From positions 1,674,001-1,738,000 of the forward strand of contig NZ_VFOP01000001.1 in assembly GCF_006716185.1 (NCBI RefSeq): a DNA stretch of 64,000 bases, written 5' to 3'. The stretch is from Ornithinicoccus hortensis. Lineage in GTDB: Bacteria; Actinomycetota; Actinomycetes; Actinomycetales; Dermatophilaceae. Positions 1 to 63,307 of the stretch are shown piece by piece (position 1 is the first letter of the stretch; each line of letters begins with the position of its first letter). The notes under the pieces are model-generated. The model did not search any database and was not told the origin of the DNA. It saw nothing but the letters and a program-made list of their open reading frames with translations. The translations under genes and the position numbers were made by a program.

Positions 1-449
1 TCGGACCCGCTGAAGATGCCGTCGGCGATGCCGGTGGGTTGTCCGACGTATGCCGTGGGCTCGCCGATCCCCACCGCCCAGTCCAGGGTGGCCAGGTCCA
101 GGTGGCTGAGGTCGTAACCCTCCTGCTGGAGGTCGCCGGCCACCTGGCCGACCGCGGCCCGCTCGGTGGTGGCATCGGCCTCGACGCAGTGGCTGGCGGT
201 GACGATCTCGCCATCGTCGCTGACGAAGAACCCGGTGCACAGGGCCAGCACGTCCGTGCTGTAGAGCGTCGACGTGCCGTCCTCCCACGGGACCTCGACG
301 GTCGCGGGGAACTCGACGTCGACCCAGACGATCGAGGCGTTCGCGTCGGAGCGGGCCCCGGTCTCGGACGCCGAGGCGGCAGCCGGGACGACGAGGGCTC
401 CGGCGAGGAGCGCGGTGGTGGTCAGGGCCTGGAGCTGGGTGGTGCGCAT
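1..449 (-). CDS. Secreted trypsin-like serine protease, 3' end cut by window edge
   Basis: The reading frame runs from an ATG at 449 (minus strand) off the left edge, so only the first ~149 residues are visible. An AGGAGG ribosome site lies about 8 nt upstream. Residues 1-27 look like a Sec signal peptide (hydrophobic core, PAAASA cleavage region). The motif TASHCVE with His87 matches the catalytic histidine block of S1/trypsin-like peptidases, preceded by CTGFFVSDDGEIV as in that fold. The Asp and Ser of the triad are expected beyond the edge, so activity cannot be confirmed. A pair of CGCTTAA repeats lies 73-90 nt upstream of the start and may control it. Confidence 0.85.
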   Translation of the reverse strand, partial: MRTTQLQALTTTALLAGALVVPAAASASETGARSDANASIVWVDVEFPATVEVPWEDGTSTLYSTDVLALCTGFFVSDDGEIVTASHCVEADATTERAAVGQVAGDLQQEGYDLSHLDLATLDWAVGIGEPTAYVGQPTGIADGIFSGS

Positions 450-521
450 GTCATCCTCCTGGGATCTGGTCCGTCCGACCTCTCCGGCGGGCGGTGGTGC
501 TGGCTCCACCGTCGCGGCGGG

Positions 522-926: not shown

Positions 927-1457
927 ATGAACACCACACCCATCTCCAGGATCCACCGCAGCGGGGCCCGTGCCCTGGCGGTCCTGCTGCTCGCCGTCGG
1001 CGTGTGCCTGCCGCTGGGCGGGCAGCCGGCCTCGGCATACGGCAACAGCGGGTGGGGCAACCCCGGGGGCGCCATCCCCGTGGCTGCCGCCTACAACGGT
1101 CTCTACGGGCTCGTCGTGCCCGGCGTCTACGTCGGTCGATCACCCGGCAGCCGGGACACCCAGTTCGTGACCGCGCGGATGCACGTGAACGAGTGGCGTC
1201 CGGCCGAGCAGCGCTGGGTCCGGATCAGGACCGGATCCCAGTCGATCAGCATGCTCCCCGGTCAGGCGTTCGGAATCGTCCCCGCCGTGACCGTCCCCGT
1301 CGACTACCGCCGCTACTACAACGTCGAGGTCGAGGTGATCTGGGAGAACGGGTACGGCGGGACCTTCGGCAGCAACACGATCCACCTCGTGCACGCCGGC
1401 GACTACCGGTGCGGCTACAGCGCGTGCACCGTCGGTCAGGGATGGATCTACTTCTGA
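927..1457 (+). CDS. Secreted protein of unknown function, 176 aa
   Basis: ATG at 927 is preceded by GGAAGG. Residues 1-37 form a clear signal peptide: basic n-region, ALAVLLLAVGVCLPL core and a cleavage site near PASAYG. The mature part is rich in Gly, Tyr, Val and Asn and has no charged repeats. Two cysteines near the C-terminus (CGYSAC) may form a disulfide. No family recognised. It may share the CGCTTAA box at 853-870 with the divergent 51-aa peptide gene, which would tie it to an envelope or extracellular stress response (inference). Confidence 0.75.
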   Translation: MNTTPISRIHRSGARALAVLLLAVGVCLPLGGQPASAYGNSGWGNPGGAIPVAAAYNGLYGLVVPGVYVGRSPGSRDTQFVTARMHVNEWRPAEQRWVRIRTGSQSISMLPGQAFGIVPAVTVPVDYRRYYNVEVEVIWENGYGGTFGSNTIHLVHAGDYRCGYSACTVGQGWIYF

Positions 1458-2367: not shown

Positions 2368-4893
2368 CTACCGGCGTGCCGTCGGTGGGGGTGTCGGGGG
2401 TGCGGTGTCACCGGCGCCCTCGTGCTGGGCGGCACGCAGCTGCCAGGCGACCGCCTGGGCGCGGCCACGGACCTCCAGCTTGCGGTAGATGTTCGACGTG
2501 TGGTGCATCACGGTCTTGGGGCTGATGCCGAGCGCCGCCGAGATCTCCTTGTTCGTGCCTCCCGCGGTCAGCAGCGCGAGCACCTCCTGCTCGCGGGAGG
2601 TGAGCAGGGACGAGGTGCGCGGGGTGGGCCGGCGGGCCGGGGCCCCGTCGACCGGCTGCTCCGCAGGGGCCGGGGGTTCGTGGCCGGTCGAGGACCGGGC
2701 CACGGTGGCGGCATACGCCAGGGCTTCCTCGGCGGCCGACCGGTGGGTCAGGCTCGCGCCGGCCAGGAAGGCCGCGTCGAAGGTGGCTCCGCCGCGCTCG
2801 CGGCAGACCTCGAGCGCCTGCTCGTAGGCGCGCTGCGTCCACGGCGGGACGCTGGGGCGCAGCACCGGAAGGTGCACGGCGAGCATGCCGTGGAAGCGGG
2901 CCTCCTGCTCGGTCTCCCTCCGCAGCGCGGCGATCCGGGCCAGGCAGACGATCGGGATGCCGCACCAGCCCCAGGCCTCCGCGGACCGACCCATCCGGAT
3001 CACCTCGGCGGCCAGGTCGGCGGCCGCGGGCAGGTCGCCCGCCCCGATCGCGTCGAGCGCGGCCAGCGGTTGGATCCAGGCCTGGGCGTGCCGGTTGCCG
3101 GTCCGGCGGGCCAGCGAGAGCAACTCCTCGTATGCCGGCAGGTCGGGCACCAGGTCGGCGCCACCGGGGAGCGAGCGCAGGAAGCCGCAGGCCACGAGGA
3201 AGACCGAGGGGTCGTCCAGCCGCTGGGCCAGCCGATAGGCCGAGACACCCCACCGGTGCGCCTCGTCCAGGTCCGCGCCCTGGTGGGCGAGCATGCCGCT
3301 CCACACCTCGAACCGGGCCAGGGTGACCTCCCAGCCCAGGGTGCGGGCCAGCTCGCGTCCTTCGGCGCACAGCGGTGCGACCGCCTCACGGTCCTCGGCG
3401 AACCGGGCGGCGCGCAGCGTCAGGCCCAGCACCCGCAGCAACGTCTCTGGGCCCGTGGCGCGGGCCAGGTCCACGGCCCCGAGCAGGTCGGTCAGGGTGT
3501 GCTGCACCGCGTCCGCGGTCTCGGCGGTCTCCGCCAGGAGCAGCCCGTGCCAGCCGGCCAGGAGGGCGCGCAGCCCGGCCGGGATCGCGGGGAAGCCGGG
3601 CAGCTCCCGGACCCGGGCCAGCAGGTGGGTGTGGCCGGGCGGGGCTCCCCGGCTGAACCAGTAGGGCGCCAGGCCGAGGGCCAGCCGGACGGCTGACGGT
3701 GCGTCCTCGCGGTCCAGCGCCCGGTGCAGCGCCAGGCGCAGGTCGGGTCCGACCGGGCGCAGGTGGTCGGTCGATCTGAGGAACTGGCTGCCGGTGCGTG
3801 CCCCGCTCAACGGGAGGGTGAATCCCAGGGCCCACCGGATGTGTGCCGAGTGCAGCTCCTCGATCTCCTCCGGCGCCACCTGCTTCAGTTGCTCCACGGC
3901 GTGCTCGCGGACCAGGGGGTGCAGGGAGAACCGGGTCGCCCCGTCCGTGTGGTCCGCCTGCACCAGGTGCATGTCGACCAGGGCGGACAGTCCCTCGACG
4001 ACGTTGCTGACCCCGGTGACCTGGGTCACCGCGTCCACCGGGACCGGGCTGCGGAAGGCGGTCAGCCGGTGCAACAGGGTGCGCTGTTGCGGGCTGAGCA
4101 GGGACTCGGTCCAGGCGATGGCGTCGAACAGGTCGTGGTCGGGGGCCCCGCCGGGGACCCGGCCGAGCACGCTCTTGTGCGGGTGGTCGCGCAGCAGGTG
4201 GAGCAGGCTGGTGGGGGAGAACGCCGCGGAGCGGGCGGCGGCGAGCTCGATGGCCAACGGCAGCCCGCCGACGAGCGCGCAGATCTCGGCCACGGCAGTG
4301 AGGGCGCCGTCCCCGGTGCCGATGGAGATGCCGGTGGCGTCGGCCACGTCGAGGAACATCTGGACCGCGGGCTGGGCGGCCAGGTCCTCGACCGCCGTCC
4401 CGGTGCCCGCGGCGGGGTGCGGAGCGGTGAACGGGGCGACCCGGAAGACCGTCTCCCGCGGGATGTACAGGGGGGCTCGGGCGGTGACCACGACCCGCAG
4501 GTCGGGCCGGGCCCTGGTCAGCGTGCGCAGGGTGTCCCCGGTCTCGGGGGCCCGGTGGGCGTCGTCGACCAGCAGGATCGTCTCGACCGGGGGTGGGTCT
4601 GTGCCGGTGCCCCTGCCGGCACGCGCGGAGGGAGCGGGTGGGGTCGCGCCGGGGATGCCCACGGCCGCGCGGATCCGCCGCTCCAGCAGGCCGGCCTCGT
4701 AGACCTGGTCCGTCTCCACCACGACCACCCGCGAGGGGCCCTCGCGGCGCTGCGTGACCAGCTCCCTGGCCAGGCGGGACTTGCCCACCCCGGGGAGTCC
4801 GGTGAGCGTCAGCACCCGGCGTCCGGGGAGGTCGAGCAGTCGGTTCAGATCGGCGAGTGCCTGGGAGCGCCCACGGAGGGGGAGATCCGGCAT
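2368..4893 (-). CDS. Large ATP-binding LuxR-family transcriptional regulator (LAL/AfsR-like)
   Basis: 841 aa from the ATG at 4893; an upstream in-frame ATG at 4974 would add a poorly conserved head. The P-loop GLPGVGKSR at residues 32-40 begins an NB-ARC/STAND ATPase domain with ILLVDDAH as the Walker B region. A long helical repeat-type middle (about 330-740, TPR-like in character) follows. A LuxR DNA-binding domain sits at about 763-820 (LTSREQEVLALL, NKEISAALGISPKTV). Such proteins are one-component ATPase switches. Target genes are not apparent; the adjacent patatin gene is the nearest candidate. No clear ribosome site precedes 4893, so the start is the best guess. Confidence 0.85.
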   Translation of the reverse strand: MPDLPLRGRSQALADLNRLLDLPGRRVLTLTGLPGVGKSRLARELVTQRREGPSRVVVVETDQVYEAGLLERRIRAAVGIPGATPPAPSARAGRGTGTDPPPVETILLVDDAHRAPETGDTLRTLTRARPDLRVVVTARAPLYIPRETVFRVAPFTAPHPAAGTGTAVEDLAAQPAVQMFLDVADATGISIGTGDGALTAVAEICALVGGLPLAIELAAARSAAFSPTSLLHLLRDHPHKSVLGRVPGGAPDHDLFDAIAWTESLLSPQQRTLLHRLTAFRSPVPVDAVTQVTGVSNVVEGLSALVDMHLVQADHTDGATRFSLHPLVREHAVEQLKQVAPEEIEELHSAHIRWALGFTLPLSGARTGSQFLRSTDHLRPVGPDLRLALHRALDREDAPSAVRLALGLAPYWFSRGAPPGHTHLLARVRELPGFPAIPAGLRALLAGWHGLLLAETAETADAVQHTLTDLLGAVDLARATGPETLLRVLGLTLRAARFAEDREAVAPLCAEGRELARTLGWEVTLARFEVWSGMLAHQGADLDEAHRWGVSAYRLAQRLDDPSVFLVACGFLRSLPGGADLVPDLPAYEELLSLARRTGNRHAQAWIQPLAALDAIGAGDLPAAADLAAEVIRMGRSAEAWGWCGIPIVCLARIAALRRETEQEARFHGMLAVHLPVLRPSVPPWTQRAYEQALEVCRERGGATFDAAFLAGASLTHRSAAEEALAYAATVARSSTGHEPPAPAEQPVDGAPARRPTPRTSSLLTSREQEVLALLTAGGTNKEISAALGISPKTVMHHTSNIYRKLEVRGRAQAVAWQLRAAQHEGAGDTAPPTPPPTARR

Positions 4894-5680: not shown

Positions 5681-6466
5681 ATGCTGGACGAGCAGGCGAC
5701 GAAGCAGGCCTTCAAGACGCTGTGGGCCGCCCACGAGGGCGGCTACACGGTCGACGGCATCCCGGAGGAGGTGCGCCCCCGCACCCGCGCCGAGGGGTAT
5801 GCCGTGCAGGCCCACTTCGCCGGGGAGACCGCCGCGGTGGCCGGGTGGAAGATCGCGGCCACCTCCCAGGCCGGCCAGGACCACCTGCAGGTCGACGGGC
5901 CGCTGGCCGGACGGGTCCTGTCCGAGCGGCTGCTGGAGCCGGGGCAGCCGGTGCCGCTGGACGGCAACTTCATGAACCTGGCCGAGCTCGAGTACGCCTT
6001 CCGGATGGTGACCGACCTCCCGCCGCGGGACACGGCATACAGCGAGCAGGAGGTGCTCGACGCGGCCGGGGAGCTGCTGCTGTCCTGGGAGATCCCGAGC
6101 ACCCGCTTCGACGCGGTCGAGACGGTGGGGGAGGCCCAGCTCATCGCGGACAACGCGTGCGGTTTCCACCTCGTGGTGCAGCCGGCGGCCGACCAGGACT
6201 GGAAGGGTGTCGACCTGGCCGCGGAGACCCCGAGCGCCACGCACAGCTCCGGCCTGGTGCATGACGGTGCCGGCCACCGGGTGCTCGGGGGCCCGGTCCC
6301 GGCCCTGACCTGGCTGGTGAACGAGCTGTCCGGTCACGGCATCACCCTGGAGGCCGGGCAGCTGGTCACGACCGGCACCTGCGCCGTCCCGATGCCGATC
6401 GCGCCCGGCGACTCGGTCACCGGCGACTACGGACGGTTCGGCTCGCTGACGGTGACCTTCTGCTGA
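5681..6466 (+). CDS. 2-keto-4-pentenoate hydratase / FAH-superfamily enzyme
   Basis: 261 aa from the ATG at 5681, preceded by AGAGGAG about 9 nt upstream and a TAGAGT -10-like element. The length equals that of MhpD/TodG-type hydratases, which add water to 2-hydroxypenta-2,4-dienoate in meta-cleavage pathways. Family landmarks are AGWKIAATS in the N-terminal third and the metal-binding Glu-x-Glu motif in LAELEYAF. The C-terminal PMPIAPGDSVTGDYGRFG matches the closing barrel segment. No other meta-cleavage genes are nearby, so the substrate is open. An upstream membrane segment is in frame (5333-5680). Confidence 0.8.
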   Translation: MLDEQATKQAFKTLWAAHEGGYTVDGIPEEVRPRTRAEGYAVQAHFAGETAAVAGWKIAATSQAGQDHLQVDGPLAGRVLSERLLEPGQPVPLDGNFMNLAELEYAFRMVTDLPPRDTAYSEQEVLDAAGELLLSWEIPSTRFDAVETVGEAQLIADNACGFHLVVQPAADQDWKGVDLAAETPSATHSSGLVHDGAGHRVLGGPVPALTWLVNELSGHGITLEAGQLVTTGTCAVPMPIAPGDSVTGDYGRFGSLTVTFC

Positions 6467-7025: not shown

Positions 7026-8404
7026 CCGACCATCGTGCCGTGCGTCCGCCCGGGAGACCAGCCCCCGGCGTCGGCCGCTGCGGGGGCGTCGTTCCAGGCC
7101 TTCCTGATGGCCGCGACGTCGGGGTCGGTGAACATCGTGGAGACGTGGTCCTCGGTGAGGGTGCGGGCCACCGTCAGCTCGACCCGCTGCAGGCTGTCCG
7201 GGGCGTGCACGGTCACCGCCGTCCCGTCGAGGAGGACGGGCTTGAGGCTGGCGATGCCCTCGGGGAAGGCTCCGGTGAGGGTGACGTGCATCGCCGCCGG
7301 CTGTCCGGGGACCGGCTCGAGCAGCCGCGCGTCCTGCACCGTGTCCAGGGCGACCAGGCCGGCGAACATGTCCAGGTGCGCGTCCCCGACGGAGGTGCTG
7401 TAGGAACTCCCCTCGACCGGCGAGGTCTCCCCGGCGTCGACGACCCGCAGCCGCAGGCTCCCGCCCTCGGGGAAGTCCGGGTGGTCGAGGACGGCGTCGT
7501 AGATCGGGCGCAGGGCGCCCGGGTCCTGGGTGGTGACCTCGAGGGTGCCCCGGGCGGCGCTCGCGGTGTCGACCCCGGGCATCTCCCGCAGGCTCTGCAC
7601 GACCGGGAGCAGCGCCTCGTTGGCGGCGGCCTCGTCGGCATCCAGGCTGCCCCGGAGGACCTGCACCTCCAGGTCCGGTCCGGCCGCCTGCCCGGCGACG
7701 GTCCTCGCCTCCGTGAGGTCGGCGTCCTCCCCGACGTTGACCGCCAGGACGTCCCCCTCGAGGCGGAACCCGGCGACCGGGTGCAACTGCGCCACGGCCT
7801 CGAGGGTGTCGTCGAGGGTGTCGGGCAGGCCCGTCCACCGGGTCGTCACCGTCCCCCACGGGTCGCTCACCTCGGCCGTCAGCACGAGGTCGTGGTCGGC
7901 CGCCAGCACGCTGCCCACCCGCTCGGTGTCCGCCACCAGGTCGGTGAGCGAGCCGCGGTACACCGGCTCGGTCGAGGTCCGCCACGGGGCGCAGGCCCAT
8001 TCGCCGTCGAGGACCAGGCCCTCGGCATACAGCGCGGTCCGCAGCTCCCGCTTCGCCTCCCGCTGGGGGTCGTCCAGACAGATGCCGAGCCCACCGGCCT
8101 GGACCCCCATCGGGGTGTAGGCGGCGCCGGTGTGCGGGCGCCACTCCTCGACCTCGGTGAGCAGGGCGTCCAGCACCTCCGGCGGGGTGTCGTCGGCGAG
8201 CACCAGGGTGCCGCTCACCTTGCCGGTGAACGGGAGCTCGTCGGTGGCGTTGGTGATCGTGTCGATGACGTGTTCGGGGTGGGTGGAGGTGAAGTGCTCG
8301 GTGAACTCCTCCGCGGCGTCGGCTCCCTGGCTCAACGCCCCGCAGCCGGAGGTGACCAGGACGGCGGCGACCACCGCCAGGGCGGTGCTGACTCGGACGC
8401 TCAT
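7022..8404 (-). CDS. Lipoprotein of unknown function, 460 aa
   Basis: ATG at 8404. The N-terminus has a lipoprotein signal: hydrophobic core ALAVVAAVLV and lipobox VTSGC. The mature part is acidic and appears to contain repeated alpha/beta modules: three or four stretches of similar length with EVxxxL and VRVxxPGG-like strands, suggestive of a multi-domain extracytoplasmic protein. No enzymatic motif was recognised. Co-transcribed and overlapping with the PPOX gene. The region between 8404 and the divergent gene at 8518 contains TACGCT/TAGGCT -10-like boxes for both directions. Confidence 0.8.
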   Translation of the reverse strand: MSVRVSTALAVVAAVLVTSGCGALSQGADAAEEFTEHFTSTHPEHVIDTITNATDELPFTGKVSGTLVLADDTPPEVLDALLTEVEEWRPHTGAAYTPMGVQAGGLGICLDDPQREAKRELRTALYAEGLVLDGEWACAPWRTSTEPVYRGSLTDLVADTERVGSVLAADHDLVLTAEVSDPWGTVTTRWTGLPDTLDDTLEAVAQLHPVAGFRLEGDVLAVNVGEDADLTEARTVAGQAAGPDLEVQVLRGSLDADEAAANEALLPVVQSLREMPGVDTASAARGTLEVTTQDPGALRPIYDAVLDHPDFPEGGSLRLRVVDAGETSPVEGSSYSTSVGDAHLDMFAGLVALDTVQDARLLEPVPGQPAAMHVTLTGAFPEGIASLKPVLLDGTAVTVHAPDSLQRVELTVARTLTEDHVSTMFTDPDVAAIRKAWNDAPAAADAGGWSPGRTHGTMVG

Positions 8405-8521: not shown

Positions 8522-9411
8522 CGGAACCGGACGTGGACGCCCTGGGTGCTGCTGCGCGGGCGCAGGCGAGGGATGCGGCCGAGGCGTTGGGGCTGGCGGT
8601 GTCGCCCGCCCACGACGTCGGGGACGCCCGTGAGCTCCTGGCCACGTTCAACCGGATCTGGGACGTCGCCCACGAGTCGGACGTGATGGACCTGGGCAGC
8701 GTCGTGGCGCTGACCCACTCGGGCAACTACGTGGGCCTGGCCCACCTGGCCGGTCGGCTGATCGGTGGGGGTGTCGGCTTCTGCGGGCCACCGGGTGCGG
8801 GCTTCCACTCCCACGTGGTGGGCGTCGATCCCGCCGCCGGGGGCAAGGGTGTGGGCCGGGCCATCAAGCTGGACCAGCGGGCCTGGTGCCTGGAGCGCGG
8901 CATCACCGCGATGCGCTGGACCTACGACCCGCTCGTGTCCCGCAACGCCGCCTTCAACATCCGCAAGCTCGGGGCGGTGCCGGAGTCCTACCACGAGGAC
9001 TTCTACGGGCCGATGAACGACGCCATCAACTCCGGGCAGCCCTCGGACCGGATGGTGCTGCGCTGGGACCTCACCCGGGACCTGCCCGCCGGGACCGGCG
9101 ACCGGGCGCCGCTCCCGGGGGAGCCGGCTGACGGCATACCTGCAGTCGTCGCGGTCGCCAGCGGTGACGGCGAGCCCGGAGACTTCACCGCGCCCCCCGC
9201 GGACCACACCGGCGAGGTACTGATCGGGGTGCCGCCGGACATCGAGGGACTGCGCCGCCGGGACCGCGACCTGGCCGCCCGGTGGCGGATGGTGACCCGC
9301 GAGGCCTTCGGCGCCCTGATCGGTCACGGCTGGCAGGTCACGGACTTCCGGCCCGGCCACTACGTCCTGCGCCGGGACGGAACCCCCATGAGTCGGGAAG
9401 GAACCCCATGA
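8518..9411 (+). CDS. GNAT-superfamily acyltransferase (COG3375-like)
   Basis: 297 aa. ATG at 8518 with a strong GAGGAGG site 5 nt upstream; an earlier in-frame start is not needed. The acyl-CoA binding loop is seen as GVDPAAGGKGVGRAIK, where R/QxxGxG/A is replaced by the KGVGRA form usual for this subfamily. It is followed by YDPLVSRNAAFNIRKLGAV. The stop overlaps the racemase start (ATGA). In Geobacillus a related GNAT-racemase pair N-succinylates D-amino acids and epimerises them toward L-amino acids. The same pairing here suggests that role (inference from context). Confidence 0.8.
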   Translation: MTEPDVDALGAAARAQARDAAEALGLAVSPAHDVGDARELLATFNRIWDVAHESDVMDLGSVVALTHSGNYVGLAHLAGRLIGGGVGFCGPPGAGFHSHVVGVDPAAGGKGVGRAIKLDQRAWCLERGITAMRWTYDPLVSRNAAFNIRKLGAVPESYHEDFYGPMNDAINSGQPSDRMVLRWDLTRDLPAGTGDRAPLPGEPADGIPAVVAVASGDGEPGDFTAPPADHTGEVLIGVPPDIEGLRRRDRDLAARWRMVTREAFGALIGHGWQVTDFRPGHYVLRRDGTPMSREGTP

Positions 9412-10529
9412 GACTTCGTCGGCTGACCCTGCACACCGTGCGGCTGCCCCTGGTGAGCCCGTTCACCACCTCGTTCGCGACCGAGACCGAGAAGGAGACC
9501 TACCTGGTCGAGGCGGTGCTGGACACCCCCGCGGGGGAGTTCACCGGGTGGGGTGAGTGCGTGGCGATGGCCGAGCCGCTCTACTCCTCGGAGTTCCTGA
9601 CCGGGGCCGTCGAGGTCACCCGCCGCTGGCTCGCGCCCACCCTGTTCGCGGTGGAGGACCTCACGGCCGAGACGGTCGGCCACCACCTACGGCCCGTCGT
9701 CGGGCACCCGATGGCCAAGGCGGCTGTGGAGATGGCGGTGCTCGACGCGCAGCTGCGCTCGCAGGACCGCTCGTTCGGCTCCTACCTGGGCGTGGTGCGG
9801 GCCAGCGTGCCCTCCGGGGTGTCGGTGGGCATCCAGGACGACGAGGCGACCCTGCTCCGGGTGGTCGCCGACTACCTGGAGCAGGGGTATGCCCGGATCA
9901 AACTCAAGATCAGGCCCGGGACCGACCTGGGCCCGGTCGCCGCGGTGCGGCGCGAGTTCGGTCCCGACCTGCCGTTCCAGGTGGACGCCAACTCCGCCTA
10001 CACGCTGGCCGACGCGGGGCACCTGCGGCGGCTCGACGAGTTCGGCCTGATCCTGATCGAGCAGCCGCTGGGGGAGTCCGACCTCCGGCAGCACGCGGAG
10101 CTTGCCAGGGTGCTGGACACCCCGGTCTGCCTGGACGAGTCGATCGACTCGGCGGAGGCCGCCGCGGACGCCATCTCGATGGGGGCCGCCTCGATCATCA
10201 ACATCAAGCCCGGCCGGGTCGGGGGATACCTGGAGGCACGCCGGATCCACGACCTGGCGCGGGCGCACGGGATCGCGGTGTGGTGCGGCGGGATGCTCGA
10301 GACGGGCGTCGGCCGCGCGGCGAACGCCGCACTGGCCGCGCTGCCCGGGTTCAACCTCGTCGGCGACATCTCCGGGTCGAACCGGTTCTACGAGGAGGAC
10401 CTCACCGAGGAGATCGTGATGCACGACGGGGTGGTCGACGTGCCGACCGGCCCGGGGTTCGGGGTGACCGTCGACCCGGCGAAGCTCGCCCGGTTCACCG
10501 AGTCGGTCGAGGAGCTCCGCGCGCCCTGA
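9408..10529 (+). CDS. N-acylamino acid racemase / o-succinylbenzoate synthase family enzyme
   Basis: 373 aa, enolase superfamily, muconate-lactonizing subgroup. All catalytic positions are in place: Lys165 and Lys167 (IKLKI), Asp193 (VDANS), Glu218 (IEQPL), Asp243 (LDES) and Lys267 (INIKPG), spaced as in Amycolatopsis NAAAR. These bind Mg2+ and abstract the alpha proton from either face. No menaquinone gene is near. The preceding overlapping gene is a GNAT acyltransferase, so N-acylamino acid racemisation is more likely than a MenC role, although the family can do both. Upstream start candidates were dismissed because 9408 gives the family-length N-terminus MRLRRLTLHTV. Confidence 0.88.
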   Translation: MRLRRLTLHTVRLPLVSPFTTSFATETEKETYLVEAVLDTPAGEFTGWGECVAMAEPLYSSEFLTGAVEVTRRWLAPTLFAVEDLTAETVGHHLRPVVGHPMAKAAVEMAVLDAQLRSQDRSFGSYLGVVRASVPSGVSVGIQDDEATLLRVVADYLEQGYARIKLKIRPGTDLGPVAAVRREFGPDLPFQVDANSAYTLADAGHLRRLDEFGLILIEQPLGESDLRQHAELARVLDTPVCLDESIDSAEAAADAISMGAASIINIKPGRVGGYLEARRIHDLARAHGIAVWCGGMLETGVGRAANAALAALPGFNLVGDISGSNRFYEEDLTEEIVMHDGVVDVPTGPGFGVTVDPAKLARFTESVEELRAP

Positions 10530-13544: not shown

Positions 13545-14200
13545 CCAACTGGGACCGGATCGCGCCCGCCCTCGTCGACGCGACCTGGGAGACCGTCTAC
13601 ATGGTCGGCGTCTCGATGGGGCTCTCCCTGCTCCTCGGCATACCGCTCGGGGTGCTGCTGGTGATCACCGCCCCCGACGGCCTCGACCCCCGCCGCACGC
13701 TGAACAGCGTGCTCGGCACGATCGTGAACATCGGCCGCTCGGTGCCGTTCATCGTGTTGCTCGTGCTCGTCGCCCCCATCACCCGGGCCGCGACGGGGAC
13801 CACCATCGGGTCGACCGCCACCATCGTGCCGCTCACGATCGCCGCCGTGCCGTTCATCGCCCGGCTCGTCGAGGCGGCCCTGCGCGAGGTGGCGCCCGGC
13901 AAGGTCGAGGCCGCCCGGGCCATGGGCGCCCGGCGCCGTGACGTCGTCCGGACGGTGCTCCTGCCCGAGGCCCGCCCGGGCGTGGTCGCCGCGGCGACCG
14001 TCACCCTGGTGGCGCTCATCTCCTACTCGGCGATGGCCGGCGCCATCGGCGGCGGGGGACTGGGTGACTTCGCCATCCGCTACGGCTACCAGCGGTTCAA
14101 CACCGAGGTCACGCTCGCCTGCGTCGCGGTCCTGCTGCTCATGGTGCAGCTGATCCAGGTGTTCGGGGACAGCCTGGCCCGCCGGCTCTCCCACCGCTGA
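13541..14200 (+). CDS. metI: Methionine ABC transporter permease MetI
   Basis: 219 aa, about five membrane helices. The EAA loop that contacts the ATPase is visible as EAARAMGARRRDVVRTVLLP. TWETVYMVGVSMGLSLLLG is the typical first helix of the family. Starts inside the metN stop (ATGA), indicating coupled translation. Confidence 0.93.
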   Translation: MTNWDRIAPALVDATWETVYMVGVSMGLSLLLGIPLGVLLVITAPDGLDPRRTLNSVLGTIVNIGRSVPFIVLLVLVAPITRAATGTTIGSTATIVPLTIAAVPFIARLVEAALREVAPGKVEAARAMGARRRDVVRTVLLPEARPGVVAAATVTLVALISYSAMAGAIGGGGLGDFAIRYGYQRFNTEVTLACVAVLLLMVQLIQVFGDSLARRLSHR

Positions 14201-17634: not shown

Positions 17635-17664
17635 CGGTCGGCACGGCATACGGGCGGGTCCGGG

Positions 17665-33590: not shown

Positions 33591-33592
33591 CC

Positions 33593-47639: not shown

Positions 47640-48578
47640 ATGGTGACTGCCGACCTCATCCCGGCCGGTCTGCGCGAACTCGTCGTGCGCCACGTCCCCG
47701 GCCCCGGGATGCCGGAAGGTGGGGTGTGGCTCGAGGGGCTGCCCCGGCTGGTGGACAACCTGTTGCAGGACTGGGACCTGCAGGTCGACGGTGCGGCGAT
47801 GCACGGCTACAGCGCCCTGGTGCTGCCGGTGCGACGCGAGGACGGGACGCCAGCGGTGCTGAAGGTGGTCTGGCCGCACGAGGAGGGGCGGGACGAACAT
47901 CTCGCGCTGCGTGCCTGGGACGGCCGGGGCGCGGTCCGGTTGCTGGCCGCGGCACCGGCACGGTGGGCGCTGCTCCTGGAACGGCTCGACCACACCCGGG
48001 ACCTGGGCAGGGAGCCGGCCATTGTCGCCTGCGAGGAGATCGGGACGCTCCTGACCCGGCTCGACCGGCCCGCTCCCGCCTGGGCACGGACCCTGTCGGA
48101 CCACCTGGGCCAACTCGTGGACGACGCGGACCGGGCCCTGGCGGCACACACCGCCTTTCCCCGTCGCCTGCTGGAGCAGGGCCGCGCCCTCGCGCGGGAC
48201 CTCGCGACCGAGCCCGACGTGGACGCACGACTGGTCCACGAGGACCTGCACCAGGAGAACGTCCTGTGGCGGCCGGACCCGGGGGAGTGGGTGGCGATCG
48301 ACCCGCACGTGGTCGCCGGCACCCCCGCGTATGCCGTGGCGCCGGTCCTGTGGAACCAGTGGGACCAGGTGCAGCGCGCCCACGACCCCCGCGTGCACCT
48401 GGGGCTCCGCGTGGACATCCTCTGCGAGGCCGCCGGCATCGATCCGGACCTGGGCCGCAGCTACGCCATCGTCCGGATGGTGCGCAACGCGCTGTGGACG
48501 CTCGCGGCGCCGCATCCCGGGACCGAGCACGAGGTCACCCAGGCCGTGACGATCATCAAGGCAATGCAGCCGGCGTGA
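47640..48578 (+). CDS. APH(6)/hydroxyurea-resistance-type kinase
   Basis: 312 aa, ATG at 47640 with GGGAG 10 nt upstream. Aminoglycoside phosphotransferase fold: Lys75 in AVLKVVWP, the Brenner motif HEDLHQENVLW with His200, Asp202 and Asn207, and metal Asp221 in IDPHVV. The N-terminal pattern follows streptomycin 6-kinase (APH_6_hur). Family members phosphorylate streptomycin or unknown small molecules; resistance cannot be assumed for a chromosomal actinobacterial copy. Confidence 0.87.
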   Translation: MVTADLIPAGLRELVVRHVPGPGMPEGGVWLEGLPRLVDNLLQDWDLQVDGAAMHGYSALVLPVRREDGTPAVLKVVWPHEEGRDEHLALRAWDGRGAVRLLAAAPARWALLLERLDHTRDLGREPAIVACEEIGTLLTRLDRPAPAWARTLSDHLGQLVDDADRALAAHTAFPRRLLEQGRALARDLATEPDVDARLVHEDLHQENVLWRPDPGEWVAIDPHVVAGTPAYAVAPVLWNQWDQVQRAHDPRVHLGLRVDILCEAAGIDPDLGRSYAIVRMVRNALWTLAAPHPGTEHEVTQAVTIIKAMQPA

Positions 48579-53241: not shown

Positions 53242-53343
53242 GCCCGATGATCGGCCCCGGGCCGCGTGCGGGTCAACGCCTCTCCACAGGCCGACCCCGA
53301 TCCGTCGCGCGACGGGACACGCTGTCGGCATACCCTGACCCGG

Positions 53344-54588
53344 GTGATCGACCTGATGAGCGGGGCAGACGCGGCGCGTCGCCAGTCCCTGCGACGGATG
53401 CGTGTCGTGGCGACCGGCCTGCTGGTGCTGGCCGCGGTGGTCTTCCTGCTGACGCTGGGCCGGGACGGCGTCTGGGGCTACGTCCACGCCGCGGCCGAGG
53501 CGGGGATGGTCGGTGCGATCGCCGACTGGTTCGCGGTGACCGCGCTGTTCAAGCACCCGCTCGGGCTGCCGGTCCCGCACACGGCGATCATCCCGCGGCG
53601 CAAGGACAGCCTGGCGCTGAGCCTGGAGCAGTTCGTGACCGAGAACTTCCTCACCGGTGAGACGATCCGGGAGCGCTACCTGGGCGCCCAGGTGGCCGGC
53701 CGGCTGGGTAGTTGGCTGTCCCGGCGCGAGAATGCCGAGCGCATCGTGGCCGAGGCGGCCCCCCTGACCAGGCGGGCACTGGAGCGCATCCGCCCGGATG
53801 ACATGCAGGCCTTCATCGAGCAGACCCTGCTGCCCCGGGTGCGGACCGAACCGCTCAGCCCGCTGGCCGGCCACCTCCTGGAGGCCGTGGTGGAGGACAA
53901 GGCGCACCGGGGTCTGGTCGACATCGCGGCGCGCGAACTGCATACCTGGCTGGAGGGACACCCGGACGAGGTCGCCTCGATCCTGGCCTCGCGGGCCCCG
54001 TGGTGGTCACCCCAGTGGCTCGACGAGAAGGTGGTGGCCCGGGTGTATGCCGAGCTGGTCGCCTGGGCGGCCGAGGTGCGGGCCAACCCGGAGCACCGGG
54101 TGATCCTGGCGCTGGACTCCTACCTGGCCGACCTGGCCGGCGACCTCCAGCACGACGAGGTCACCATGGCCCGGGCCGAGGAGCTGAAGCTGCGGATCCT
54201 GGAGCACCCGTCCGTCGGTCCGGCCGCGGTCGCCCTGTGGGAAGCGGTGCGGGTGGCGCTGGTGGAGGCGCTGGAGTCGCCGGAGGGGCACCTGCGGGTC
54301 CGGTTGTGCCGGGAGCTGCAGGAGTTCGGCGCCCGGGTCGTCGACGACGGGCCCTTGCGGGCCCGGCTGGACGAGTGGGGTGCCGACGCGGCCGTCGTGC
54401 TGGTCGAGCGCTACGGCGCCGAGCTGACCACGGTGATCAGCTCCACCATCGAGCGGTGGGACGGGCAGGAGGCGGCCGCCAAGATCGAGCTCCACGTCGG
54501 ACGCGACCTGCAGTTCATCCGGATCAACGGCACGGTGGTCGGGGCGTTGGTCGGGCTGGTGCTGCACACCGTGTCGCAGCTCCTCTGA
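53344..54588 (+). CDS. DUF445 family membrane protein
   Basis: 414 aa from the GTG at 53344; ATG 53356 is a possible start. An N-terminal membrane pair is followed by the family signature AAEAGMVGAIADWFAVTALF and KHPLGLPVPHTAIIPRRKD. A long helical cytoplasmic part and a final helix complete it. Function of DUF445 is unsettled. The -10 region CATACCCT 7 nt upstream carries a copy of the GTATGCC motif (53327-53333), the only copy seen inside a promoter core. Confidence 0.87.
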   Translation: MIDLMSGADAARRQSLRRMRVVATGLLVLAAVVFLLTLGRDGVWGYVHAAAEAGMVGAIADWFAVTALFKHPLGLPVPHTAIIPRRKDSLALSLEQFVTENFLTGETIRERYLGAQVAGRLGSWLSRRENAERIVAEAAPLTRRALERIRPDDMQAFIEQTLLPRVRTEPLSPLAGHLLEAVVEDKAHRGLVDIAARELHTWLEGHPDEVASILASRAPWWSPQWLDEKVVARVYAELVAWAAEVRANPEHRVILALDSYLADLAGDLQHDEVTMARAEELKLRILEHPSVGPAAVALWEAVRVALVEALESPEGHLRVRLCRELQEFGARVVDDGPLRARLDEWGADAAVVLVERYGAELTTVISSTIERWDGQEAAAKIELHVGRDLQFIRINGTVVGALVGLVLHTVSQLL

Positions 54589-57279: not shown

Positions 57280-58774
57280 CCGGCTGGTGCACCCAGACGT
57301 CGAAGAAGGTCGTCAGGTCCTGACCGGAGACCTCCTCGGCCAGCGCCTCGAAGTCGGCCGTCGTCGCGGTGCCTCCGCCGTAGGTCGCCACCCACTGCTG
57401 GGCCAGTTCGAAGAACGCGTCGTCGCCGATCTCGCCGCGCAACGCGTGGAGCGTGGCGGCGCCGCGGTCGTAGATGGCCCCACAGAAGAGGCAGAGCGAG
57501 CCCGGGTCGGCGACGACGACCGACCAGAACCCGTTGTCCGCCGGGATCGCCATGACCTGCTCGAACGACTCCTGCGCGGTGGCGTCGCCGTCGTGCTCGT
57601 TCCACATCCAGGTGGAGTAGCTCGCCCACCCCTCGTTGAGCCAGATATCGGCCCAACGGCCCGGGCTGACGTGGTTGCCCATCCACTGGTGCGCCAGCTC
57701 GTGCGCCACCGTGCCCTCGCGCGCCCGCACGCTGAAGAAAGAGCGGGTCTGCGTCTCCAGGGCATAGCCGACCGAGTCGTCGTCGACGATCGCCCCGTAG
57801 GACACGAATGGGTAGGGGCCGTAGCGCTCGGCGAAGAACTCCAGCATCTCCGGGGTCCGTGTCAGGTCGGCCGAGTTCGCCGGGGGCAGCGCCGGGTCGA
57901 TGGCGTCGATGATCGGTATGCCGTCCGGTCCGGTCGTGGTGGTCAGCTCGAAGTCGCCGACGGTCGCCGTGGCCAGGTAGGCGGCCATCGGGTCCGGGGC
58001 GTCCCAGGTCCAGGTGGTCCAGCCGTCCTCGGAGGACTCGTCCTCCAGCACGCCGTTGGCCACCGCGACCAGCCCGTCCGGCACGGTGATCTCGAAGTCG
58101 TAGGTGGCCTTGTCCGTGGGATGGTCGCTGACCGGGAACCAGGTCGCCGACCCGTCCGGTTCGCTCACCACCATGGCGCCGTCCCGGGTGGTGACCCACC
58201 CGTAGAGCGCCCCCTCGATGTCGGTCGGTCGGGTGGTGGTCGCCTCGTAGAAGACCTCCACCTCGACCTCCTCGCCCTGGTGCAGCAGGCCACGGGCCCA
58301 GACCTGCAACTCGTTCTCGACCTGGGCGAAGCGCGTGCGCTTGCCGTCGATCCGGACCTGGCTGACCTCCGGGCCGCGCAGGTCGAGGTTGAAGCGGCGC
58401 AGCTTCTCGGTGGTGGTCAGCCGGATCGTCGCCACGCCCTCCAGGTGGCCCTCCAGCGGTGCCGGGGCGGCCTCCGGTGGGGTATAGGTCAGGTCGAGGG
58501 AGTAGTGGTCGACGTCGATCCCGCCGTTGCCGGCGAGCGGGAAGTACGGGTCGCCGGCGCCGTCGTCGCCGAGGACGGGGCGTCCCTGCTCCGAAGGTTG
58601 GGCGCGCTCCGCGGGTTGGGCGCGGTCGGGCTGCTCGCCGGGGGCTGCGCCGGCCGCGGTGGTGGCCAGGCCCAGGCAGAGGACGAGGGCGGCCGCGGCG
58701 CTGGCGCGGCGACGGGAGGGGGAGACGCGGGGTGTGGAGCGGCGGGCGGGGGAGGTGCTGCCGAGAAGGTCCAT
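57260..58774 (-). CDS. Secreted M1-family zinc aminopeptidase
   Basis: 504 aa from the ATG at 58774. Basic head, then signal core AALVLCLGLATTAAG with cleavage near residue 43, and an acidic/Pro linker. The zinc site is HELAHQWMGNH (His358, Glu359, His362) with Glu381 in NEGWASY, the M1 HEXXH-18-E spacing. The exopeptidase GAMEN motif is altered to GYALE (336-340), common in bacterial secreted M1 enzymes. It lacks the C-terminal helical domain of full PepN, so it is a short extracellular type. Confidence 0.9.
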   Translation of the reverse strand: MDLLGSTSPARRSTPRVSPSRRRASAAAALVLCLGLATTAAGAAPGEQPDRAQPAERAQPSEQGRPVLGDDGAGDPYFPLAGNGGIDVDHYSLDLTYTPPEAAPAPLEGHLEGVATIRLTTTEKLRRFNLDLRGPEVSQVRIDGKRTRFAQVENELQVWARGLLHQGEEVEVEVFYEATTTRPTDIEGALYGWVTTRDGAMVVSEPDGSATWFPVSDHPTDKATYDFEITVPDGLVAVANGVLEDESSEDGWTTWTWDAPDPMAAYLATATVGDFELTTTTGPDGIPIIDAIDPALPPANSADLTRTPEMLEFFAERYGPYPFVSYGAIVDDDSVGYALETQTRSFFSVRAREGTVAHELAHQWMGNHVSPGRWADIWLNEGWASYSTWMWNEHDGDATAQESFEQVMAIPADNGFWSVVVADPGSLCLFCGAIYDRGAATLHALRGEIGDDAFFELAQQWVATYGGGTATTADFEALAEEVSGQDLTTFFDVWVHQPVKPTEW

Positions 58775-59368: not shown

Positions 59369-62300
59369 ATGCCCGAGCACGCCCGCCCTCCTCGGCGTGC
59401 CCGTCGACCGGGACGTCGCCCGCCCAGGCAGGGCGGCGACCCCGCGGCCAGGGCGGAGCGCCTCGCCCGACGCCGGGCGCTGGTGCCGACCGGGATCGAC
59501 TACCCGGCCGACTTGCCGGTGGTCGAGCGCCGGGACGACATCGCGGGGGCCATCCGGGACCACCAGGTCGTCATCGTGGCGGGCGAGACAGGGTCGGGCA
59601 AGACCACCCAGCTGCCCAAGATCTGTCTGGAGCTCGGCCGCGGGGTGAACGGCACGATCGGGCACACCCAGCCGCGCCGGATCGCGGCCCGTTCGGTGGC
59701 CGAGCGGATCGCCGAGGAACTGGGCGTGGAGACCGGTGGCGTGGTCGGCTACCAGGTGCGGTTCACCGACCACTCGACCAGGGACACCCTGGTCAAGGTG
59801 ATGACCGACGGCATCCTGCTGGCCGAGCTGCAGCGCGACCGGGAGCTTCGCCGCTACGACACGCTGATCATCGACGAGGCGCACGAGCGCAGCCTCAACA
59901 TCGACTTCATCCTCGGCTACCTGCGCCAGCTGCTCCCGCGCCGTCCGGACCTCAAGGTGATCATCACCTCGGCCACCATCGACGTGGAGCGTTTTGCCGA
60001 ACACTTCGCCGACGGGGAGGGGTGCCCGGCACCGGTCGTCGAGGTGTCCGGGCGGACCTACCCGGTCGAGGTGCGTTACCGCCCCCTGGTGCGCCCCGGC
60101 CCGCCGGCGAAGGACGGCACCCCGACCACCGTGGACGTCGACCAGGTCACCGGGCTGTGCGAGGCCGTCGAGGAGCTGTGGACCGAGTCCCCGGACGACG
60201 GTGGGCCCCAGGACATCCTGGTGTTCTGTTCCGGCGAGCGGGAGATCCGGGACGCCGCCGACGCCCTCGCGGGTCTGAACCTGCCGGCCACCGAGGTGCT
60301 CCCGCTCTACGGCCGGCTCTCCGCGGCCGAACAGCACCGGGTGTTCTCCCGGCATGCCGGGCGCCGGATCGTGGTCTCCACCAACGTGGCCGAGACCTCG
60401 CTCACCGTGCCGGGGATCCGGTATGTCGTCGACACCGGCACCGCGCGGATCTCCCGCTACAGCCAGCGGCTGAAGGTGCAGCGCCTGCCGATCGAACCGA
60501 TCAGCCAGGCCAGTGCCAACCAGCGCTCCGGCCGGTGCGGGCGCCTCGCCGACGGCATCGCGGTCCGGCTCTACTCGGAGGAGGACTTCGCGTCGCGACC
60601 GGAGTTCACCGACCCCGAGATCCTGCGGACCAACCTGGCCAGCGTCATCCTGCAGATGACCAGCCTGGGACTGGGAGAGATCGCCGCCTTCCCCTTCGTC
60701 GAGCCGCCGGACTCCCGCCAGGTGGCCGACGGGGTGCGGTTGCTCACCGAGTTGCAGGCGATCGACCCGGACGCCCCGGTCCACCTCCCGCGCAAGCGGC
60801 TCACGGCATACGGCAGGGCGATCGCCCAGCTCCCGGTGGACCCGCGGCTGGCCCGGATGCTGATCGAGGCCGAGCGCAACGGTGCGCTGCGCGAGGTGCT
60901 GGTCATCGTGTCCGCCCTGTCGATCCAGGACCCCAGGGAACGGCCGACCGACAAGCAGGCGCAGGCAGACCAGTCGCACGCGCGCTTCCGGGAGGGGGCC
61001 GACGACTCCGACTTCCTGACCATCCTGAACCTCTGGCGCTACCTGAAGCGGCAGCAGAAGGAGCTCTCCGGCAGCGCGTTCCGGCGGATGTGCAAACGGG
61101 AGTACCTGCACTACCTGCGGGTCCGCGAGTGGCAGGACCTGCACACCCAGCTCAAGCAGGCGTGCAAGCAGGTCGGGCTGGGCCTCAACGACAACGACGC
61201 GGGACCGGACGCGATCCACCAGTCGCTGCTGGCGGGCCTGCTCTCGCTGGTCGGGCTCTACGACAGGGACAAGCGCGAGTACCTCGGGGCGCGCGGCGCC
61301 CGGTTCCACCTCCAGCCGGGTTCGGCGCTGTTCAAGAAGAACCCCGACTGGGTGATGACCGCCGAGCTGGTCGAGACCACCCGGCTGTGGGCGCGGGTCA
61401 ATGCGCGCACCGACCCGGCCTGGGTGGAGCGGGCGGCGGGCCACCTGGTGAAGCGCAGCTACTCCGAGCCCCGGTGGTCACGCAGCCGCGGCAGCGCGAT
61501 CGCCGACGAACGGGTGACCCTGTATGGCGTGCCGCTGGCCGCCGGTCGCGCCGTCCCGCTGGGCAGGGTGGACCCGGAGACGGCCCGCGACCTGTTCATC
61601 CGGCACGGACTTGTCGAGGGCGACTGGGACACCCGGCACGACTTCTTCCACGCCAACCGCAAGCTGATCCGGCAGCTGGGCGAGCTGGAGGCGCGGGCCC
61701 GCCGCCGCGACATCCTGGTCGACGACGAGACCCTGGTCGAGTTCTACGACCAGCGCATCCCGGCCGAGGTGGTGTCCGGGGCCCACTTCGACACCTGGTG
61801 GAAGCGGGCCCGGCGGGGGGATGCCGAGCTGCTCACCTTCACCGAGGACCTGCTGGTCAGCGACGGGGCCGGCCGGGTCAGCGACAGCGACTACCCGGGC
61901 ACCTGGCGACAAGGCGACCTGGAGCTCCCGCTCACCTACCAGTTCTCACCCGGATCCGACGCCGACGGCGTGACCGTGCACATCCCGATCGAGGTGCTCA
62001 ACCGGCTCACCCCCGACGGGTTCGACTGGCTGGTGCCCGGACTGCGCGAGGACCTGGTGACCGCGCTGGTCAAGGCGCTGCCGAAGGCCACCAGACGGCA
62101 CTTCGTGCCCGCCCCAGACCACGCCCGGCGGGCGCTGCGGGCGATGGGCCCGGAGGGCGGGTCGGGGCCGATCGACGAGGCGCTCGCCGACGCGCTGTCG
62201 GCCGACGGCCCGGTGCGGGTCGATCCGGACGAATTCGACTGGGCCAGGGTGCCGGACCATCTGCGGGTCACCTTCCGGGTCGAGCGGCGCGCCGACCCGG

Positions 62301-63307
62301 CCGGGCGTCGGGGTGGCCGGCCGCGGGGCCGCGTCGAGGTGCTCGGCGAGGGCAAGGACCTCGCGGCCCTGCAACAGCAGCTGGCCCCCCAGGTCCGCAC
62401 CACCATGGCCCGGGCGGCCGCCTCCGTGGAGAAGCAGGGGCTGACGACCTGGGACTTCGGGGTGCTGCCGGAGACCTTCGAGCAGCAGGTCGGGCCCCGG
62501 ACGGTGCAGGGCTACCCGGCCCTGGTCGACACCGGGTCCGCGGTCGACATCCGGGTGCTCGGCACCGCCTCGGAGCGGGACCGCGCCACCCGCCTGGGCA
62601 TCCGCCGGCTGTTGCTGCTCAACACCACGGCGCCCTGGAAGCGGCTGTTGGCGCTGCTGACCAACCAGCAGAAGCTGGCGCTGGGCAACAACCCGCACGG
62701 CTCGGTGCCCGCGCTGCTGGAGGACGCGCTGGCCTGCGCGGTGGACTCGGTCGTCGCGGAGATGCCGGGCGCCACGGTCCGCAGACCGGAGGACTTCGAC
62801 GCGGCCCTGTCGCAGGTGCGCCAGCAGGCGGTGCCCCGGGTGCTGCAGATCGTGGAGAACCTGGTGCCGGTCCTCGACACGGCCCGGGAGGTCGGGCTCG
62901 CCCTGACCCGGCTGACCAGCCCGGCGGCGGCGGACCTCGCCACCGACCTCAGGCGCCAACTGGACCAGCTGGTCCGGCCGGGCTTCGTGGCCGACACCGG
63001 GTACACGCGGCTGCCGCACCTGCGGCGCTACCTGGCGGGCATGGCCGAGCGCCTGGAGAAGGGGCCGCAGGACGTGCGGCGCGACGCCGATCGGATGGCG
63101 ACGGTCCACCAGGTCGAGCAGGAGTATGCCGACTTCCTGGCCCAGCTGCCCCCGCACCGGCGGACCGATCCGGACGTGGTCGACATCGGCTGGCAGCTGC
63201 AGGAGCTCCGGGTCAGCCTGTTCGCCCAGCGTCTCGGCACGCCGCAGCCGGTCTCGGCCAAGCGGATCTACGCCGCGATGGACCGCGCGGAGGACGCCAC
63301 GGCGTGA
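59369..63307 (+). CDS. hrpA: ATP-dependent RNA helicase HrpA
   Basis: 1312 aa from the ATG at 59369; a CAGGAT -10-like box 6 nt before it suggests a leaderless mRNA. DEAH-box motifs: GETGSGKTTQLPK (near 72), DEAHERSLN (near 169), SATID, TNVAETSLTVPGI and QRSGRCGR, then HA2/OB-fold regions and the long HrpA-specific C-terminus (DUF3418: DYPGTWRQGDLELPLTYQF onward). HrpA remodels structured or stalled mRNAs and ribosomes. A perfect 12-bp tandem duplication begins at its stop codon. Confidence 0.93.
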   Translation: MPEHARPPRRARRPGRRPPRQGGDPAARAERLARRRALVPTGIDYPADLPVVERRDDIAGAIRDHQVVIVAGETGSGKTTQLPKICLELGRGVNGTIGHTQPRRIAARSVAERIAEELGVETGGVVGYQVRFTDHSTRDTLVKVMTDGILLAELQRDRELRRYDTLIIDEAHERSLNIDFILGYLRQLLPRRPDLKVIITSATIDVERFAEHFADGEGCPAPVVEVSGRTYPVEVRYRPLVRPGPPAKDGTPTTVDVDQVTGLCEAVEELWTESPDDGGPQDILVFCSGEREIRDAADALAGLNLPATEVLPLYGRLSAAEQHRVFSRHAGRRIVVSTNVAETSLTVPGIRYVVDTGTARISRYSQRLKVQRLPIEPISQASANQRSGRCGRLADGIAVRLYSEEDFASRPEFTDPEILRTNLASVILQMTSLGLGEIAAFPFVEPPDSRQVADGVRLLTELQAIDPDAPVHLPRKRLTAYGRAIAQLPVDPRLARMLIEAERNGALREVLVIVSALSIQDPRERPTDKQAQADQSHARFREGADDSDFLTILNLWRYLKRQQKELSGSAFRRMCKREYLHYLRVREWQDLHTQLKQACKQVGLGLNDNDAGPDAIHQSLLAGLLSLVGLYDRDKREYLGARGARFHLQPGSALFKKNPDWVMTAELVETTRLWARVNARTDPAWVERAAGHLVKRSYSEPRWSRSRGSAIADERVTLYGVPLAAGRAVPLGRVDPETARDLFIRHGLVEGDWDTRHDFFHANRKLIRQLGELEARARRRDILVDDETLVEFYDQRIPAEVVSGAHFDTWWKRARRGDAELLTFTEDLLVSDGAGRVSDSDYPGTWRQGDLELPLTYQFSPGSDADGVTVHIPIEVLNRLTPDGFDWLVPGLREDLVTALVKALPKATRRHFVPAPDHARRALRAMGPEGGSGPIDEALADALSADGPVRVDPDEFDWARVPDHLRVTFRVERRADPAGRRGGRPRGRVEVLGEGKDLAALQQQLAPQVRTTMARAAASVEKQGLTTWDFGVLPETFEQQVGPRTVQGYPALVDTGSAVDIRVLGTASERDRATRLGIRRLLLLNTTAPWKRLLALLTNQQKLALGNNPHGSVPALLEDALACAVDSVVAEMPGATVRRPEDFDAALSQVRQQAVPRVLQIVENLVPVLDTAREVGLALTRLTSPAAADLATDLRRQLDQLVRPGFVADTGYTRLPHLRRYLAGMAERLEKGPQDVRRDADRMATVHQVEQEYADFLAQLPPHRRTDPDVVDIGWQLQELRVSLFAQRLGTPQPVSAKRIYAAMDRAEDATA

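Follow-up and report, generated by a model that had tools for sequence, protein, structure and literature searches.

Why does the heptamer GTATGCC occur so often on one stretch of the chromosome of Ornithinicoccus hortensis? The window, by which we mean the whole stretch of 64,000 nucleotides analysed, lies at 1,674,001–1,738,000 of the host genome, a single contig of 3,935,242 bases. The initial annotation had reported 34 copies of GTATGCC, 17 in each orientation, and 17 copies of the 10-mer GTATGCCGTG, against expectations of about 6 and 0.1, and had proposed a DNA-level signal. Both counts were reproduced (17 copies per strand for the heptamer; 9 plus and 8 minus for the 10-mer), and the expectations were correct for independent bases (5.9 and 0.11). 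The over-represented word, whose best unit is the 8-mer GTATGCCG, is close to certainly a DNA-level signal. With a probability of roughly 0.55, we propose that it is a self tag resembling a DNA uptake sequence (DUS), spelled in dialects, which would be read via a Tad-pilus/ComEA/ComEC route.

By our own caller of open reading frames (ORFs), 30 of the 34 copies in the window were genic, reading mostly as Tyr-Ala (TAT GCC) or Ala-Tyr (GCA TAC). The rare Ile codon ATA, described before at 9133 and 13637, is used within Gly-Ile-Pro at both positions and in a third case at 57916. Four copies were intergenic (15156, 17645, 19267 and 53327), of which two (17645 and 19267) are located directly behind stop codons, as had been stated. 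The copies are as follows.

48–57, plus strand, GTATGCCGTG, Ala-Tyr, in a minus-strand gene
1034–1040, minus strand, GTATGCC, Ala-Tyr (GCA TAC)
2710–2716, minus strand, GTATGCC, Tyr-Ala (TAT GCC)
3130–3136, plus strand, GTATGCC, Ala-Tyr
5797–5806, plus strand, GTATGCCGTG, Tyr-Ala
6031–6040, minus strand, GTATGCCGTG, Ala-Tyr
8024–8030, minus strand, GTATGCC, Tyr-Ala
9133–9139, minus strand, GTATGCC, Gly-Ile-Pro with rare ATA
9887–9893, plus strand, GTATGCC, Tyr-Ala
13637–13643, minus strand, GTATGCC, Gly-Ile-Pro with rare ATA
15153–15162, minus strand, GTATGCCGTG, intergenic
17642–17651, minus strand, GTATGCCGTG, intergenic, directly behind a stop codon
18385–18394, plus strand, GTATGCCGTG, Tyr-Ala
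19264–19273, minus strand, GTATGCCGTG, intergenic, directly behind a stop codon
20489–20495, plus strand, GTATGCC, Ala-Tyr
20606–20612, plus strand, GTATGCC, Ala-Tyr
22700–22709, minus strand, GTATGCCGTG, Tyr-Ala
26572–26581, plus strand, GTATGCCGTG, Tyr-Ala
26988–26994, minus strand, GTATGCC, Tyr-Ala
29547–29556, minus strand, GTATGCCGTG, Tyr-Ala
32110–32116, plus strand, GTATGCC, Tyr-Ala
36824–36833, plus strand, GTATGCCGTG, Tyr-Ala
39210–39216, minus strand, GTATGCC, Ala-Tyr
41135–41144, minus strand, GTATGCCGTG, Ala-Tyr
41583–41592, plus strand, GTATGCCGTG, Tyr-Ala
48329–48338, plus strand, GTATGCCGTG, Tyr-Ala
50269–50275, minus strand, GTATGCC, Ala-Tyr
50581–50590, plus strand, GTATGCCGTG, Tyr-Ala
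50641–50650, plus strand, GTATGCCGTG, Tyr-Ala
53327–53333, minus strand, GTATGCC, intergenic
54045–54051, plus strand, GTATGCC, Tyr-Ala
57916–57922, plus strand, GTATGCC, Gly-Ile-Pro with rare ATA
60802–60811, minus strand, GTATGCCGTG, Ala-Tyr
63124–63130, plus strand, GTATGCC, Tyr-Ala

Markov models of orders 1–3 predicted 2.5–4.5 copies of GTATGCC and 0.05–0.09 copies of GTATGCCGTG for the window, and order 4 predicted 19.7 and 0.5. At order 5, which had been suggested as a control, the number of the heptamer was reproduced (32.5 expected, 34 observed) but that of the 10-mer was not (1.6 expected, 17 observed). The former agreement arises because the hexamers on which the model is trained, GTATGC and TATGCC, are the motif itself. 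The enrichment holds for the whole genome, in which GTATGCCGTG was found 276 + 297 times and the reversed control word 12 + 6 times (18). In a sample of 20 stretches of 20 kb each (400 kb), GTATGCC occurred 102 + 100 times and GTATGCCG 177 times, against 11.6 expected for the latter from an order-3 model, giving about 1,700 copies of GTATGCCG per genome by extrapolation. The over-representation claimed for the motif thus stands, but the fixed 10-mer is not its best unit. The ranking of k-mers behind this statement covered the window and the sampled stretches rather than the complete genome. The base following GTATGCCG was T or A in 77% and the next was G in 61% of 205 copies, so that the host form is often GTATGCCG[T/A]G. 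Among 24 single-base variants, GTATGTCG was a clear second form (32 versus 5.5).

Codon usage was controlled on the sample plus the window (464 kb, 396 predicted genes) by synonymous shuffling, which preserves every protein and the codon use of each gene. Coding copies of GTATGCCG numbered 171, compared with a mean of 17.9 (standard deviation 4.1, maximum 29) in 100 shuffles, and those of GTATGCCGTG 57, compared with 2.5; a codon-preserving shuffle, also proposed beforehand as a check, therefore does not reproduce the observed number. As many as 118 of 295 TAT codons were inside GTATGCC. Between genes, 34 copies of GTATGCCG were found against 1.6 expected, an excess of about 20-fold, and the density was 0.42 per kb in genes and 0.56 per kb in gaps. 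Chance and base composition were rejected with the Markov models of orders 0–5 together with these shuffles, and the shuffle control, the intergenic excess and the occurrence on both strands and in many genera strongly support the earlier proposal of a signal at the DNA level. A mutational or codon artefact, either deamination of GTACGCCG to GTATGCCG or a bias in codon pairs, would agree with the C-to-T difference between the two spellings and with the depletion of GTACGCCG in host genes (19 versus 53 in shuffles). The deficit of GTACGCCG, about 34, is far below the excess of GTATGCCG in the same genes, about 151; the intergenic excess and the failure of the synonymous shuffles also speak against it, and GGATGCCG, a related word described below, is not a C-to-T product. 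We consider such an artefact hardly credible.

The copies showed no strand polarity. With leading and lagging halves assigned by the sign of GC skew, from which alone the origin was placed, GTATGCC was found 96 times on the leading and 106 times on the lagging strand in the 20 stretches (p = 0.53). Chi and KOPS (FtsK orienting polar sequences), which are likewise over-represented 7- to 8-mers, are oriented relative to replication. A KOPS-type mark running from origin to terminus, the polar form of the segregation mark listed in the initial annotation, is accordingly disfavoured. A hotspot of recombination of Chi type, read by RecBCD or a similar helicase-nuclease, would suit an asymmetric 8-mer over-represented in genes, and the host has RecC. 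In addition to the lack of leading-strand bias, RecC was detected in only 6 of the 19 GTATGCCG-enriched genomes examined, not being found in the other 13, which include the GTATGCCG-rich G007, G017, G022, G032 and G052, and it is present in several untagged genomes. A Chi-type role is thus very improbable, the RecBCD version being disfavoured. This survey covered 39 of the 42 genomes used below for Tad genes (G034, G006 and G125 left out). RecC was patchy in the family, with 15 positive genomes among 37 examined, and RecBCD has therefore probably been gained or lost repeatedly there.

Copies of GTATGCCG were spaced a little more regularly than by chance (dispersion index 0.83 for 2-kb bins). 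Such an even spread along the sampled chromosome, as well as the higher density in gaps than in coding DNA, would be expected for a site that is bound, across the whole chromosome, by a protein organising the nucleoid or the chromosome. This alternative requires, however, that the roughly 1,700 extrapolated sites were respelled in close lineages and are absent from others, and the sites lack polarity; we regard it as quite unlikely. Convergent gaps looked denser in sites (9 in 9.2 kb), though the numbers are too small.

The tag was next followed through the family of the host, which we take to be Dermatophilaceae in GTDB and which includes Janibacter melonis and Kytococcus aerolatus. Enrichment required a minimum of 40 copies of the 10-mer and of three times the count of the reversed control. 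It was found in 82 of 149 genomes, host included, with up to 874 copies; the non-enriched genomes mostly had 10 copies or fewer. No completeness filter was used for this set, in which 130 of the 149 genomes reach 90% completeness with contamination of no more than 5%. Outside the family, none of 272 genomes from 18 other families of the order reached 40 copies, the highest number being 24, in a survey of 297 genomes selected by completeness of at least 90% only. The comparison with related genomes called for earlier thus gave enrichment restricted to this family within the order.

Per com locus of 20–22 kb, GTATGCCG was counted 16 times in Ornithinimicrobium cavernae, 22 in Phycicoccus elongatus, 14 in Terracoccus, 12 in Flexivirga, 15 and 13 in two Humibacillus xanthopallidus and 5 in Serinicoccus chungangensis. 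The count was zero at the loci of three Janibacter (one of 12 kb), Kytococcus aerolatus and Intrasporangium flavum. In a ComEC tree built from 27 of 80 named loci and 15 genomes, some proteins being partial, the host joined O. cavernae and Ornithinimicrobium sp. F0845 (100/99). The GTATGCCG trait takes 8 changes on this tree versus 12.9 in shuffles, on labels drawn from small samples, which put G069, Serinicoccus and one Ornithinimicrobium in the class 'none'. Among 12 host sites at the com locus, 0–8 were alignable per relative and no more than three were kept in any of 19 relatives; in these rough alignments (68–75% identity), the turnover of the tag therefore looks fast.

Related words replace GTATGCCG in part of the family. 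The GTACGNCG dialect was found in 10 of the 149 genomes at 936–1,960 copies per Mb, the next genome having 647, and the GGATGCCG dialect in 7 at 686–1,248 per Mb, the next having 382; these densities were computed for 17 and 10 chosen genomes, respectively, and the gap to the others was read from count tables. G105 is intermediate by the density rule and was not included among the 10. By these rules, 54 of the 149 genomes have none of the GTATGCCG, GTACGNCG and GGATGCCG spellings as a tag. The three words share G1, A3, G5, C7 and G8. No GTACGNCG genome was also enriched in GTATGCCGTG (0 of 10; Fisher p = 2e-4, ignoring relatedness). Both spellings coexist in four of the seven GGATGCCG genomes (82–290 copies of GTATGCCGTG), and these four belong to genus g45. 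Within genus g26, G069 uses GTACGNCG and both G096 and G025 use GTATGCCG, indicating that close lineages differ. On the ComEC tree, the two GGATGCCG rows formed one clade beside GTATGCCG rows, and the Janibacter rows formed another.

The dialects were examined in samples of 80–100 kb from 20 further genomes, of which 18 belong to the family and two do not, coding copies being compared with synonymous shuffles and intergenic copies with an order-2 model. For GGATGCCG, observed to expected copies were 68:14 (coding) and 25:0.7 (intergenic) in G026. For GTACGNCG, the values were 148:59 and 19:3.8 in G069, 141:51 and 17:3.8 in G040, 180:55 and 16:3.2 in G048, and 147:39 and 7:1.5 in G023. G099 carries GTATGCCG (24:3 and 5:0.2), gene prediction covering only 0.65 of it. 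A weak excess in coding DNA, none being clear in gaps, was observed for GTACGNCG in G024 (61:34) and for GGATGCCG in G001 (33:13). In these samples, no clear excess of the tested words was seen for G041, G002, G008, G009, G010, G013, G014 (only 0.43 of which was covered by gene prediction), G045 and G049, or for G256 and G285 outside the family. Nostocoides sp. F2B08 gave 7 copies of GTATGCGG versus 0.2, in 15 kb only.

Janibacter loci (L111, L113, L121, L076–L079 and L204) were nearly free of GTATGCCG and have a word of their own, CGAAGGGG, with 58 copies in 80 kb and flanks of G-G/A before and G after; in Janibacter melonis (G037) its ratios were 50:10 in coding and 18:0.9 in intergenic DNA. 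Words of GTACGNCG type were among the highest-ranking ones at several com loci outside the family (L133, L134, L137, L138, L145, L153 and L177, from Kribbella, Enemella, a nocardioid and others), and GTACGCC was found 32 times versus 3.0 in 22 kb of the Enemella com locus, a value without shuffle control. A tag may therefore exist beyond the family.

One island of the host was poor in the tag. Its 34 kb, at about 1,785–1,819 kb (L191 and L013), contained one GTATGCCG, whereas the bulk density predicts 15.5, and its flanks were normal; we noticed this island before testing it. It carries an integrase, has lower GC and, as judged from the sequence, contains genes resembling insertion sequences and defence systems. 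Host bins of 5 kb below 68% GC had 0.129 copies per kb (11 copies, 17 bins) compared with 0.456 elsewhere (262 copies, 115 bins). Phage TJE1 of the related host Tetrasphaera jenkinsii had 2 copies in 49 kb, close to its own Markov value of 0.9; the dialect of that host may be different.

These data bear on the main rival, a site comparable to HIP1, the highly iterated palindrome of cyanobacteria. Such an iterated motif would be kept by a methyltransferase or by mismatch or recombinational repair, its spelling following changes of the enzyme. This possibility agrees with copies being found on either strand, inside genes and between them, and HIP1 is likewise highly iterated with a spelling that can vary between strains, exceptional genomes with altered HIP being discussed alongside methyltransferases (PMC4390886). 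HIP1 is, however, a palindrome tied to known methyltransferases (PMC4390886), and neither GTATGCCG nor GGATGCCG is palindromic. The shortage in the island is also less expected if an enzyme acts on all resident DNA, unless accumulation is slow. A HIP1-like site is unlikely, although less so than the alternatives above.

Among the functions listed in the initial annotation, an uptake sequence fits best with the dialects, the lack of polarity and the near absence of the tag from one island and a phage. A word that accepts the cost of rare codons, occupies genes and gaps on both strands without polarity, is respelled between close lineages with two spellings in one genus, and is nearly missing from one island and one phage shows the pattern to be expected from biased uptake of kin DNA. 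We infer a receptor, an uptake bias, a drive and a direction of dialect change as follows. A surface DNA receptor of the Tad-pilus/ComEA/ComEC route would prefer tagged duplex DNA in either orientation, and fragments from kin would enter and recombine more frequently than foreign DNA. Every uptake event would favour tagged alleles, and copies would therefore build up by this bias (molecular drive) where protein and regulatory constraints permit, chiefly at codon pairs for Tyr-Ala or Ala-Tyr and between genes. A shift in receptor preference would respell the genome into a new dialect such as GTACGNCG or GGATGCCG, and with loss of specificity the tags would fade.

Genes for such a route are present. 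The host encodes ComEA (SLBB and HHH_3 domains) and ComEC. It also has two Tad-type loci whose members include T2SSE, T2SSF and TadE-like proteins, one TadE-like protein being above its cut-off. ComEC was found in 39 of 40 genomes, and the Tad-type ATPase in all 42 examined (38 above the family cut-off); weaker Tad-ATPase matches occurred in 13 of 14 control genomes, with one above the cut-off. By our reading, the helix-hairpin-helix end of ComEA precedes comEC at 13 of 15 loci, tagged and untagged alike; it was not visible at the G069 and G049 loci. In G014, an untagged relative with a small genome, it is a separate short ORF, the ComEA region (L040, 7636–8827) reading as two ORFs, which represents either a broken gene or a sequencing error. 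Gene content was rejected as an explanation of the distribution, as none of ComEC, PilM and the Tad ATPase separates tagged from untagged genomes.

Several observations weigh against the uptake tag. Family members in which no tag was detected likewise have ComEC, ComEA and Tad genes. PilM, the marker of type IVa pili, was found in 1 of 45 genomes, in a search that covered this marker rather than ComP itself, and the tag receptor is putative. The Janibacter word lacks the core common to the other dialects. Tag density was low in both the least and the most codon-adapted quintiles (0.33 and 0.29 per kb versus 0.46–0.53). Close inverted pairs within 30 bp were barely above chance, with 7 outward and 11 inward against about 6 of each kind by our density estimate. 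Around two further integrase-like genes, at 2.87 and 3.53 Mb, the tag was close to its normal frequency (6–9 copies per 20 kb), and the shortage in island and phage also fits any slowly accumulating tag.

The DUS receptor is a ComP-type minor pilin of the type IVa pilus, and close inverted DUS pairs are frequent in Neisseria, where they act as terminators. The uptake signal sequence of Pasteurellaceae is present at similar copy number, coding DNA included, but differs from the present word in spelling, phylum and pilus type. To our knowledge, these two families, Neisseriaceae and Pasteurellaceae, are the only ones whose uptake sequences have been characterised. The closest published pattern is the series of neisserial DUS dialects, also short asymmetric words found as over-represented 10-mers, in very many copies and with clade dialects around a common core (PMC3630211). 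Neisserial DUS are strongly reduced in genomic islands, which can be detected by dialect (PMC7371117). The present system is unlike DUS in belonging to high-GC Actinomycetota, in its Tad-type loci with PilM nearly absent, in its few hairpin pairs and in its putative function and receptor. Transformation via Flp/Tad pili is described for the actinobacterium Micrococcus luteus (PMC4322843 and PMC6370729); six terms for uptake specificity did not occur in the text of PMC4322843. Among the matches listed from open PubMed Central papers, none reported, as judged by title and opening of the abstract, an uptake sequence in Micrococcales or in genera of the family, those for the motif itself were unrelated by title, and GTATGCC was absent from the main text of PMC2843746.

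The odds are about even that this is the first sequence-specific uptake code in Gram-positive bacteria, with at least three related dialects, genus g45 in mid-switch between GGATGCCG and GTATGCCG, and a putative receptor on a Tad/Flp pilus; 'first' is meant with respect to a limited search of open PubMed Central papers. If true, self-tagging of transforming DNA evolved repeatedly, here in an independent phylum and with another pilus; the dialects would offer a natural series of switches for finding the receptor; and the finding would point to natural transformation as a regular habit of a large family of actinobacteria and provide a handle for its genetics. If the word is not an uptake tag, an abundant and respelled motif without known function would be a puzzle of the rank of HIP1.

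Hairpin terminators are probably not the main role of the tag, the total of inverted pairs (7 + 11) being near chance. Four perfect or near-perfect hairpins of two inverted tags were nevertheless observed 15–32 bases behind stop codons, by our own ORF calls:

L208, 2480–2540, inverted-tag hairpin, adjoined by a third tag copy
L209, 2310–2350, inverted-tag hairpin
L210, 2275–2320, inverted-tag hairpin
L010, 7510–7565, inverted-tag hairpin

At L004 (9243–15599), three ORFs with nearly identical first 50 residues (VPDATTFACPDLTTF...) were found around a triplet of integrase-like genes, and this region is probably a mobile element.

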